From positions 75,033,663 to 75,097,662 of the forward strand of contig CM054177.1 in the NCBI GenBank assembly GCA_028829895.1: DNA of 64,000 bases, in the 5' to 3' direction. This stretch comes from Sinotaia quadrata. Lineage: Eukaryota > Mollusca > Gastropoda > Architaenioglossa > Viviparidae. Every line of letters begins with the position of its first letter. Within the stretch, counting starts at the first letter, position 1. Below, one piece after another: positions 22,901 to 28,900 of the stretch. A program made the translations under genes and the position numbers. Below the pieces are notes generated by a model. It did no database searches. It saw nothing but the letters and a program-made list of their open reading frames with translations, and was not told the DNA's origin.

Positions 22901-25900
22901 CACTTATTTGTCAATAAAAGTGCTTTGTATCTTAGTAGTATTTCACTTCCAGAAATAAAAATAAGTGAATGGAACTCTTTGGTGAACCAATTCTATTGTC
23001 TCTACTGTATACTGAATTAATTCCAATCAAAATGATTAATCAGAGAATGCAGTATTAATATTTCAAATTACACACAACAAAAAAATGAAGAGAAAAAAAA
23101 ATATACTAGCATATTTTGAGACTGAAGCATTGAGGACTAAGGTGAGTAAGGTATTTTAAAAATAAAGAACGTTTTTAAAATAGAGAACAAATATACATTT
23201 TTTTAATTAAAACAAATCATTTCTTTGTTGTGAGAATGCAAAAGTCAGACAGAACCCATGTGAACATTGAAAATCATTCACCATCTTAAACTGACAAGAT
23301 CAAACTCTGTGGTCATATTGGAATACACATTCTGTTTTGTTTTGTTTTTCACTTTTAGTATAAATATGTTGATTTAATACACCAGAATGTATACTTGAAA
23401 GAGTAAATTTAATGACTATACAAATAGATTTTTTCTTTTGTTTTTGCATACTGAAATATTACAGCAGTCTTATTGGACATCTGAAAAGCATATAAATTTA
23501 TTGAATTTTAGAGAAACTTTACAGAAAGATCATTTATGAGGTGTATGATCTTCTAGTACCAACAATATAAAATATTTTAGCTTCATGAGTGAAAAAGTGT
23601 TTATACGATGCATGTCTAATTCTGTAAAGACAAGATATACAACTAAACATCACTGCATGCTTTATAAAGATCAAAATATTTCTTCAGGTGTGGTGATAAC
23701 TCACAGCAATCTCATGTGTGGTATGTCTGGTCAATGTGAACGCATTCCAAATCTTGGGTAAGACCTTTTGTGCTAATTCTGAGTTGTTTTAAAAATAAAG
23801 TCATAAACCTATGTTTGCACCACTTCCAGCATCCTATTTGATTTATTTCATGAGCATTGTGTCAAACATCTTTAATGCTGTCACTTCTTCATACATTCTT
23901 GCACACACACATAATAAACTTTTTTTTTTTTAAATTAACGAAAATGGAATTGGTTACCAATAAATTTTGCCATGTAAAATCTTTTCTTGATATGTTCTTA
24001 AAAACTAGTGTGAAACTTACAGGCAAAACTGTTTCTTACACTGCATTTTTCATGTTCAGGTCCTCAGTTTATCTTCTTGAATGCCCATAGGTAAATTTTA
24101 TGAGTACTTTTCCAAATCATTTTGACCACAGATATGATTTACTCATTTGCTATGTTGTAGGGAAATCATTTCATTAATTTAGTGTTTGGTAGAATTTTAA
24201 TTTTATTCCTACTTTGATTAACTCATGCTGAAATCACTAAATTTAAGTTTGTTGGGGTGTTTTTCATTTCAGCCAACCAGATATCTACATTGGATACTTA
24301 CCGCTGGCTCACGTCCTGGAGCTTAGTGCAGGTGAAATGTTGCATTTTGTGGAATTGTAATCTGGATCCTTAGTGAAGGGATTGTAAATAGGAGAGAATT
24401 ATAAGATACTTGGTTAGATGTTGACCAATTTTGCTTGTGTGCATTATAATCTGGATCTTTAGTCAAGGGATTGTAAATTGGAGAGAATTATAAGATGCTT
24501 GGTTAGATGTCGACCAGTTTTGCTTGTGTGCATTTAATCTGAAGCATTAGTCAGGGGATTGAAATGTGGCATCTATAAGTAAAGAAAATTATAAAGTATT
24601 TGGTTGGATGTTGATCAGTTTTGTTTCTGTATATGAATTATTGTTCTCATGATTTCTCCATATTGCAGAAATATCTTGCATGGCTCATGGGGTGTGTATT
24701 GGTTACTCTTCACCACTTACTCTCACTGATCAGGTAATTGTGTTTCTTTGAAAACAATCATTTCATTCTCTTTCTCTGACCTTTCTCAATTTCTCCGTCC
24801 AGCCCTTTGTCCCTCTCTCTCTCTTACGCTGAAGCATGCACACACATACACATTTATACACTTTGATCCTTAAACAGTTTATCTTGGTAACTCTCACTCT
24901 GATTCCTCCATAATAAAACACCAAGTGGTGCAAGAAATCTATGGATCCCTGACAGTTTTGACATACATTTATGCTCTTACAATTTTTTACATTCATTTTT
25001 GTAACTTTCACTCTCTTTATGATGCAGTACCAAGCTGCTTATCAAATCTATAGTCCTTTGATAATCTGAATCATCTTTTTAACTTCTTGAATTTTTTGTC
25101 TTTTTGTTACTTAAATACTATTATGGTTTGAAAAGTTCTTAAAAAATGAGAACCATCTTGAAAAGTACTTGAATTTTATTTTGTCCTTGAAAAGCATTTG
25201 AATTTGCCTACAAACCCTTGAATTAGTTAAGAAGTCCTTGATTTTTATTTTAAAAGAAATATCCCACCCCTTCTTCTCCATCAGTTTGCATATATATATA
25301 TATATATTTATTTTAAATAAAATGCTGTGAAAACATTTGCAGTGTGCGTAACTATAAATACATGTGAATAGGTCTAACTGACTCAGTGGAATGCTTTAAA
25401 CTGTATCAAATACAGATTTTAATACCACTCATGCTTTGACAATTAAACATTAAAGGCAGTGTCAGGTGCTGTGGTAATTTACAGTAAATTTGTTAACTTA
25501 AAAGACCCATCAAGAACAAAATATTAGAACAAAGTTAACAAATATTTAGACTTTTAGACAATTATTGAGACTTTAGGACACTCAAAAACTGTTGAGAGAT
25601 TATTCAACATCCAGCCTGGCACATTCATCCACATATCCAGTTAAAAATTGCTGTGGAAACTATACATTGTTTTTGTGTTTTGAGTTCTGTACATTGTTTT
25701 GTGGTTTGATTTTATTTACAGTTCAGCAAGATAGCTGTACATTGTAGTTTTGCTTTGTTTGCAGTCCAGTAAGATATCTGTATATTGTTTTGTTTACAGT
25801 CCAGTAAGATATCTGTATATTGTTTTGTTTACAGTCCAGTAAGATATCTGTATATTGTTTTGTTTACAGTCCAGTAAGATATCTGTATATTGTTTTGTTT

Positions 25901-28900
25901 ACAGTCTAGTAAGATATCTGTATATTGTTTTGTTTGCAGTCCAGTAAGATATCTGTATATTGTTTTGTTTACAGTCCAGTAAGATATCTGTATATTGTTT
26001 TGTTTACAGTCCAGTAAGATCAAGAGAGGCAGCAAAGGAGATGTCTCTGTCTTAAAGCCCACACTGGTCGCTGCAGTACCAGTAAGTGCATAATTAATTA
26101 TTTTTTCATTAATAATATATGTCTGCCTTGAACCCTCATAGATTGATACAGTACCTTAAATGCACATTGATCATTATTCAGTTGAAATGTTCATAAGTCT
26201 GAAGTGCAAAGCCAATAAATGTATATGGAATGCTTTTCATTAATACTTGCTGTCTATGGAAGATGACAATGAAACATTGAACCAGTACATTTTTGTTTGT
26301 TTGATACATTTAAGATGTTTTTACAAGCCAGGGTTGTGCATTTTGCAGATTTCGTGAGGATATCAACTTTCTTCTACATTTATATTTGGTTTGTTTCTGT
26401 TGTTTTCTTTTATATCAATTTTTGTCTGTCAATAAGTTAAGGTAAGACTAATTTTCATTTTAGTTAGTTTTGATTATGTGTATTTTATGTGCGTGAGTTC
26501 TGCTAAACTATTGTAACTTCCATCCCTTTTTTTGCATAGGTATACTATTTTAAGGTTGAAAAGACATGTTTGTGAATGATGTTCATATGTCTTTTGGAAG
26601 AGAACAGCATGTTGATCTTACATAGTTGCATGGCAGCCACATCATTGTCATTCAGACACATTACTGCATCTGCACAAGCAGAAATGGTTAACAGTTAGCA
26701 GATAAGTATAAACAAATAACAGATGACACACCAAGTTCTATAAGAGTTGACTGTATTTTGTTCACTGCTTAATGAGAGGAGCATGAGAATGCACCTAACC
26801 ATAACAGAGGGGGTAGATTTATTTGCTGAAGACCTGACACTGCTTCATTGTGTGAAAATACTTACTACATTGGTTTGAGTCACAAATAAATGGAATTTTT
26901 CTGTATAAAAGTTTGTTGTTGTTGAATACTTACCTGAGTCATGCTTTAGAAGTACTCATAATCTCTGTCCATATACAATATACGAGAGTAAATAGCCTAT
27001 AAATTTAGCCTCAGGGATCTTTGCTGCCTTCTAGTACTCTAGACAAAGTAGGTGTTTTCTCACTGCCTATTGGTATGTATCTGTATGTATTTTATTGCCA
27101 AAGAGAGAAAACTTAGCATAAGAGTTCACACCAAAGGAATTGATAGCAGCAGCTATTGTTGACCTTTAATGCAGATGATTAGTGATGTGGGACTCCATTT
27201 ATCATCCCATCCCCTTTAAAAACAACAAACATTTTATGGTTGATGAAGAAAATGTATGCTGTTGTCACATGATGTCATCCTATTGTACTTGGTAAATGAC
27301 AAAACAGTAAGCAAAGGATATCAAGCCTAACCACTCTGGAGGTCCTTGTCTAATTTATGGTATTGAGTTTGGATTGACTTTTTACCCTTGAGTGAGAAGG
27401 ATCATGGGGGATTCTCATCCAACATTTGTGAAGGTCTTGCTATTCCCAGTCCATCCAGGAACAATGGGTTTTAATACAAACTTCCAACTGCCCAATGTCA
27501 ACAAACTTACCAGATGGGTATGTGCATAAGGCTCTTCCAGCTTCACTGTTTTTCAACCATTTGTTTTTTGGGGGGATTCAAAGGGACATCTCTCTTATAA
27601 CGGGCATGCTGCTAATAAATTTTATTTATCATTTTTCTCCCTTGGAGTTTATGTCGACCCTTTACAGACTCAGGCGGATGCTTGTAGAACTCTCTGATTC
27701 CTCACAGATGCTCTTCTTATAAGGAAAAATTCACTTTACTTCGAGAGAAAAACTTTTTTTCCATCCTACAACCAGATATCAAATATCAGCAGTAAGTGCA
27801 CACCCAGCAATGAAGTGAAAATATGTTTTAGTTTGTACACAAATTTTTAATGCTCATCTATAGTTTTAATGTGGTCTTTCAGTCAGTGCAGACTAATGAA
27901 AAGAGATTGCAGCATCGGTGGTATTGCCTGTCATATAGCAATACACATTAATTTAACTACAATAATTTTAGTGAGCTTTCAAGCAATTTTATTTAATTAT
28001 CACTAATTTAAATAGTAAATCAGCAGTTTCATTCATAAAAATAACTTAAATTGATTGTGTGGTACAAACAGTCGATTGATATCCACAATTTTTTCTTTGT
28101 TTTTTTCTCCACTGGATAGCAAAATGACAAAATCATTGACTAAAATAATGAACTTGAATAGAATAAAATAATATACAAAATAAGAATTAGAATAAAAATT
28201 ATACCTTGTGAATGGAAGTTCTGATATTATTTTTAAGTAAATGATATAATTTTGACTCGTACATCATATAATATAACTGCAAAGGACCTTAATATTTCAA
28301 GAGAACTAGTAACAAAAGCAACTTCTGAAACAAACTGGTACATTACAGAAATGCCAGTTTCTTTGTTTTTGTTTTTTGTTTGTTTTTGTTTTGTTTTGTT
28401 TTTTTTTGTGGGGGAGGAGTTGTGTTGTTTTGAGGGGTTTTTGTTGGGGTGGGGAAGTAGGGGTGGGGGTATTGCTCCCAAAATCTCGCATTCCTTCTTC
28501 CTTCTAGATAAACTCTGAGCTGTGTTGGAAATGTACCAAATTTTTTTTTTTTTTAACTTATAGAAAACTGAATATATTAACTGAATGAAAGCCATCAAAA
28601 TTACATTTTTGTATTTATTTTTTTTTTTTTTTTTTTTTTGGGGGGGGGATAGTTGACTCTCACTAAATTGGGTGAAGTTTTTGTAAAATACAAGCATATT
28701 ATCTGCAATAGAATAAGTTCTTAAGGTTAATTATTTCTGTACTAAGGACCACAATAAACAAATGTTCATTTTAAATACATTGCTTGTACATGTAATAAAA
28801 CTAATATTGTCAATAACCTTGAAAACAGAAATTACTAATAACGTAATAAGTATGTATTATTTTATTAACATTAATTATATCTACTTGCATTCTTGCCTAG

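Follow-up and report, generated by a model that had tools for sequence, protein, structure and literature searches.

Minisatellites that span exon–intron boundaries, known as mirages, are described in amphioxus, where AG/GT splicing signals recur in many of the repeats and where reverse-transcription PCR suggested that splicing is regular (PMC3087553). The same account describes the amphioxus globin gene BflGb6, in which the end of an intron and the start of the following exon are tandemly duplicated, in six or three units depending on the haplotype. On the donor side, intron 7 of human factor VII (F7) carries 37-bp repeats of which normally only the most upstream 5′ splice site is used, as summarized in a review (PMC6627357). 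Repeats have also been tied to intron gain: the potato RdRp gene is reported to have gained an intron through duplication of an intron–exon boundary, with recruitment of an exonic GTAAG donor, and the same paper cites 24-bp repeats within a fission yeast gene that are linked to intron gain (PMC4974935). Here we describe a 35-bp tandem array in the snail Sinotaia quadrata, situated at the boundary between intron 9 and exon 10 of a gene for an ACSL3/4-type long-chain acyl-CoA synthetase (here ACSL). The array lies within a window of 64,000 nt (assembly GCA_028829895.1, contig CM054177.1 of 155.8 Mb, positions 75,033,663 to 75,097,662), to which the coordinates below refer.

The ACSL array is likely to be a minisatellite of the mirage type, spanning the boundary as an ordinary feature of this genome rather than as a dedicated device. 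Each unit spans one splice junction, comprising 24 nt of intron and 11 nt of exon, and it is on this architecture that the assignment rests; the mollusc is best filed as a putative new host for a known class of array. As in BflGb6, the 3′ end of an intron is duplicated together with the 5′ part of an exon, with units of 150–160 bp in the globin gene and 35 bp here; the units of the amphioxus Adh3 mirage, given as 10–72 bp in the same report, are comparably short (PMC3087553). The amphioxus mirages belong to a cephalochordate and come, as reported, with RNA and haplotype data, whereas the ACSL array belongs to a mollusc and is known from sequence alone. No boundary-spanning minisatellite from a mollusc is described in the titles and abstract openings surveyed, which is weak evidence of absence, or in the consulted portions of two papers on gastropod introns (PMC3862624 and PMC7931591). 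The features of the locus are as follows.

16836–39265, + strand: ACSL3/4-type long-chain acyl-CoA synthetase gene, 17 coding exons (15 joined in an open frame; exons 1 and 17 from tblastn)
24669–24733, + strand: coding exon 9, ending in LTDQ, donor gtaatt (open-frame joining and tblastn)
25687–25764, + strand: 5′ end of the array, diverged and older, with a 43-nt unit and an acceptor-like site at 25721
25758–25974, + strand: seven decoy acceptors, with their ends at 25764, 25799, 25834, 25869, 25904, 25939 and 25974
25765–26020, + strand: seven full 35-bp units plus 11 nt at the start of exon 10 (period 35, 97% matches)
26003–26009, + strand: true 3′ splice site TTTACAG, junction 26009/26010, the sole open-frame choice of nine
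26010–26081, + strand: coding exon 10, 72 nt, phase 0, encoding 24 residues, donor ACCA|gtaagt (open-frame joining and tblastn)

The gene product matches the profile PF00501 with an E-value of 1.2e-80. Its 15 joined exons form a single open frame in which exon 26010–26081 is in phase 0, and tblastn with three homologue queries added two more, the first starting at 16836 and the last at 39114. The affected exon is therefore coding exon 10 of 17, which is the number it had been given in the sequence-only reading, an earlier interpretation of the window made by a model from its letters. Nearest among the matches listed are proteins of Batillaria attramentaria (77% identity) and Pomacea canaliculata (76%) and one further protein (77%), which makes a caenogastropod origin of the DNA the most likely. 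With the junction at 26009/26010, the window protein reads LTDQSSKIK across the exon 9/10 joint, and all 16 aligned homologues, taken from at least 120 listed, cross this joint without an insertion (for example, LTDQSSKIK and LSDQSTKIK).

Tandem Repeats Finder (TRF) calls the array at 25750–26020 (period 35, 7.7 copies, 97% matches, score 514), a tandem arrangement far beyond chance, and also calls a repeat at 25687–25795. Older repeat sequence thus extends back to about 25687, upstream of the start at 25708 proposed earlier, and the diverged 5′ end is presumably the older part of the array. The unit joins the 11 nt with which exon 10 begins, TCCAGTAAGAT, to the final 24 nt of the intron, ATCTGTATATTGTTTTGTTTACAG, in that order; these 24 nt end in TTTACAG. 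Six of the seven units are identical and the remaining one carries two changes. Nine acceptor-like ends are present in all, of which the last eight (25764 to 26009) are spaced by exactly 35 nt and the first, 25721, lies 43 nt before 25764. Seven near-identical copies at 35-bp spacing had been proposed upstream of the true site, and seven decoys with this spacing are indeed present, but only six of them (25799–25974) share the upstream 35 nt with the true site, with 0–2 mismatches (two for 25939), and the outer decoys differ there at 16 (25764) and 19 (25721) positions. Over the 11 nt downstream, five of these six decoys match the true site and 25904 differs at 2 nt. Following each of the seven decoys is a donor-like sequence, which is the CCA|GTAAGA expected in every unit by the sequence-only reading, except after 25904, where it is CTA|GTAAGA. 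The exact 18-mer TTTACAGTCCAGTAAGAT occurs five times in the 984-Mb genome (26 contigs), in each case within the array, and a reversed-pattern control gave no occurrence. A 70-nt query of two units found no match outside the array in a genome search that scored the best candidates only.

The strength of the competing sites was estimated with a small home-made weight matrix built from the other 14 modelled acceptors of the ACSL gene; with training on 14–15 sites of a single gene these splice scores are rough, and some outer exon ends are missing or displaced by 1–5 nt both here and in the strict null described below, with array counts unaffected. The true acceptor scores 7.27, and the decoys from 25721 to 25974 score 9.42, 9.12, 7.27, 7.27, 7.27, 6.72, 9.55 and 7.27, so that three of the eight are higher, four equal and one lower. 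The true site has no local strength advantage over the decoys, and because those at 25799–25974 share its sequence, local models cannot separate them well from it. The donor-like CCAGTAAGA scores 8.86, in a range of 3.69–10.96 for the 15 real donors, each left out in turn, three of which score higher.

In silico, use of any of the eight upstream acceptors brings translation to an early stop, and only 26009 keeps the frame open. Use of the acceptor one unit upstream adds 35 nt and brings a stop at 26053 (tcTTAAag), just as had been predicted. Stops within the added sequence, predicted for two or three units, are found for additions of 105 to 288 nt, thus for three units, but with two units (70 nt) the stop falls at nucleotide 6 of the exon itself (cag TAA). 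The broader claim that any mis-choice yields a nonsense transcript holds for the eight decoys, but skipping of exon 10 (72 nt) and use of an AG at +9 both keep the frame, as does inclusion of three or six TCCA micro-exons; one or two such micro-exons break it, and an AG at +5 of exon 10 gives an immediate stop. Several exon junctions lie downstream of the decoy stops. As a general rule, a stop far ahead of the final junction triggers decay, and the premature stops arising from the decoys would be expected to do likewise.

Minisatellites, defined here as TRF repeats with a period of 15 or more and a score of 100 or more, occupy 12.1% of the window and 13.3% of 200 kb sampled elsewhere (13.5% excluding 2,616 N; three contigs were sampled in 20 stretches, each of 10 kb and placed at a round coordinate, L017–L036). 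The latter is a high share for an animal genome. Across ACSL and the astacin-type gene that follows it, three of 51 junctions lie inside arrays and five lie within 20 nt of one, against 6.6 (0.98 + 5.58) expected from random intronic points. By gene, one of the 32 ACSL junctions lies this close (0.98 expected), as do four of the 19 astacin junctions (5.58 expected), a total that sets aside a ShK-type match at L014:4701–4859, for which an acceptor was not placed, and any exons in the interval from 63447 to the first ShK exon, which tblastn did not show. Enrichment of arrays at exon edges was accordingly rejected, the counts being no higher than under random intronic placement, and in this small two-gene sample the arrays have no preference for junctions.

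For the origin of a mirage at this site, a 35-bp stretch made up of 24 nt from the end of intron 9 and 11 nt from the start of exon 10 would have undergone tandem duplication, and slippage or unequal exchange would then have expanded it; the genome around it is rich in arrays. Working-looking acceptor and donor signals would be retained in the copies merely by virtue of their being copies. Splicing would mostly select the copy attached to the body of the exon, with exon 10 recognized as a unit through its own downstream donor and exon sequences, such that the exon-proximal acceptor wins; any leakage to a decoy would introduce a premature stop, and the transcript would probably be degraded. It is this predominant use of the exon-joined copy that would allow the gene to survive the array.

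Several points weigh against the mirage interpretation. Use of 26009/26010 is itself something we infer from the open frame and the homologues. Scanning from a single upstream branch point would favour the first AG of the ladder, and the gene needs the last. Under the scanning model (cited in PMC2423196), the branch point would have to sit in the last AG-free stretch of 24 nt, from which YUNAY motifs are absent save for one that overlaps the acceptor; the next, at −39, lies inside the acceptor of the preceding unit. A survey of YUNAY motifs upstream of 22 modelled acceptors singled out no mechanism. The F7 case, in which the most upstream donor is used, does not itself demonstrate use of the downstream copy at acceptor arrays. 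Finally, a strict null that allows arrays no more than 20 bp of overlap with an exon, a tolerance picked after seeing the data, places the overlap with junctions somewhat above expectation (P of 0.066 and 0.035), which leaves room for a bias in the birth of arrays at exon edges.

The sequence-only reading had offered a choice between tight splicing control and tuning of expression; the decoy ladder and the nonsense outcomes on which it drew stand, but the simplest option, a mirage with a precedent in amphioxus, was missing from it. As a tuner, the array would divert some transcripts to decoys, where they stop early and decay, and the number of units would set ACSL output. All eight decoys do give stops upstream of several exon junctions, and in the small model three of eight outscore the true site, four tie with it and one is lower. 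Such arrays are, however, common across this genome, and the amphioxus mirages with their AG/GT signals apparently leave regular splicing undisturbed, as far as that account goes (PMC3087553), which makes tuning unlikely. Still less probable is the wider proposal that a hypervariable number of units tunes productive ACSL mRNA through decoys and decay, and does likewise at many boundary-spanning arrays here. Tight control, meaning that selection maintains a dedicated feature (a bound factor, for instance, or folding of the RNA) by which the decoys are silenced, finds some footing in predicted structure: with pairing spans of up to 40 nt, the unpaired probability of the CAG is 0.135 at the true site and 0.028–0.042 at the six inner decoys, whose UACAG can, on reading the sequence, pair with a CUGUA just downstream, a motif that exon 10 lacks. 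In addition, none of 100 dinucleotide shuffles folds as well as the array (z of −3.3), although shuffling destroys the repeats as well. The contrast depends on span: a limit of 150 nt puts the true site (0.030) inside the inner-decoy range (0.014–0.033), and a limit of 350 nt restores its lead (0.057 versus 0.009–0.021). With the 40-nt limit, openness at the two outer decoys (0.132 for 25721, 0.113 for 25764) is close to that of the true site. Since 12 of 100 and 8 of 100 arrays rebuilt from shuffled units reach an equal ratio of true site to decoys, the difference in openness is not exceptional. RNA folding is thus weak as a selector of the site, and we consider dedicated control very improbable.

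As a seed of new introns, the array would offer in each unit an acceptor and a GTAAGA donor, usable as a micro-exon with short introns between. The units do carry both signals, and in the potato gene, as described, a boundary-crossing duplication likewise supplied an acceptor and a GTAAG donor; the fission yeast case shares with ACSL its short repeated units inside a gene (PMC4974935). Those repeats became introns, however, whereas the ACSL units straddle an existing boundary and the aligned homologues bear no sign of a new intron. The exon between the signals would be of 4 nt, one or two insertions break the frame and none of the 16 homologues has extra residues at the joint, and we give this possibility hardly any weight. 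An assembly artefact is the least probable of these alternatives; assemblies do err in tandem arrays and a single haplotype is represented here, but one unit carries two private changes, the 5′ end is diverged and arrays are frequent in the sampled genome stretches. With the mirage interpretation preferred, functions in tuning or control, though possible, are not needed to account for the ACSL array.

Further classes of splicing element bear comparison with the array. In NAGNAG and similar close tandem acceptors the competing AGs lie a few nucleotides apart, which rules out this class for acceptors repeated at 35 nt. A recursive splice site, in which an acceptor is directly followed by a donor (AG|GT), leaves nothing in the mRNA and is ruled out in turn, as AG|TCCA|GTAAGA leaves 4 nt. 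In a conserved poison-splicing element, both the sequence and the unproductive isoform are conserved between species. Introners, described as similar copies inserted in many genes genome-wide (PMC9860276), are ruled out because the two-unit query, with the best candidates scored, matched only the ACSL array. The F7 repeats resemble the array in unit length and in carrying copies of a genuine splice site, and there, according to the review, it is the copy adjacent to the exon that is used (PMC6627357). They repeat a 5′ splice site of which the first copy is used, whereas the ACSL array spans a 3′ site of which the last copy would be used, and on this ground it was rejected as an F7-type array.

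The choice of a splice site among identical sites is an old question, and near-identical decoys leave only position and context to decide it. If about one in 20 junctions lies in an array, as do three of 51 in the small sample of two neighbouring genes, there would by extrapolation be thousands of natural experiments genome-wide, at both types of splice site. This genome may therefore offer many natural tests of splice-site choice, and its possible richness in such arrays is the main source of interest in the ACSL case.

The next gene is of astacin type, with a match to PF01400 for one exon (E-value of 3.9e-22) and six exons in a single open frame. Arrays lie at three of its junctions.

56319–57032: 64-bp array of 11 units, ending six bases before a real acceptor (junction 57038/57039)
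57723–58133: 38-bp array, the first unit holding the astacin exon donor CAGACTTCA|GTAAGATC (junction 57731/57732)
63432–63814: 63-bp array, the first unit holding the donor of the astacin catalytic exon, GTCACT|GTAAGT (junction 63447/63448)

Ten units of the 64-bp array contain the acceptor-like TGTTGTCTCCATTTTACAG and one contains a variant, so that the array appears from its sequence to be a second ladder of decoy 3′ sites within the window. The donors at 57731 and 63447, each held by the first unit of its array, are closer parallels to F7 than the ACSL site, and the 38-bp array reads as an F7-like 5′ splice-site minisatellite. Of its ten further units, three keep GTAAG, two have GTAGG or GTAAA and five are without GT; in the 63-bp array GTAAG is kept in none of the five further units listed. 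Five of eight aligned relatives cross the joint at 57731 without an insertion, and one relative (P0127) continues past the joint at 63447 as VTAFS.

Among 53 matches to the astacin family, the donor side was taken for nine of the ten that match the same part of the profile outside the window. No array crosses the donor junction in these nine stretches, one of which (L063) extends only 54 nt past the donor; in another (L055) repeats begin about 31 nt downstream of the donor. For ABC transporters, 19 matches were listed and all but the weakest, which has two stops, were fetched together with 300 nt of flank at either end; in one of these 18 stretches (L042) an array lies no more than 20 nt from the edge of the match. 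This 39-bp array (L042:440–595) begins one base after the apparent donor, which was placed by eye, and its further copies read ATTAAGG instead of GTAAGG.

A 65-bp array at L014:8011–8275 stops 17 nt short of the acceptor of a ShK-type exon. A similar ShK-type exon at L014:6053 has related upstream sequence, in which an array was not detected, and the two exons are possibly a before-and-after pair for the array. In ACSL itself, an 89-bp array at 24358–24565 begins 27 nt past the donor of coding exon 8. The ACSL (16836–39265) and astacin (55499–63447) genes adjoin, and their Batillaria matches are numbered close to each other (BaRGS_008703 and BaRGS_008700), which suggests that this neighbourhood may be an old linkage.

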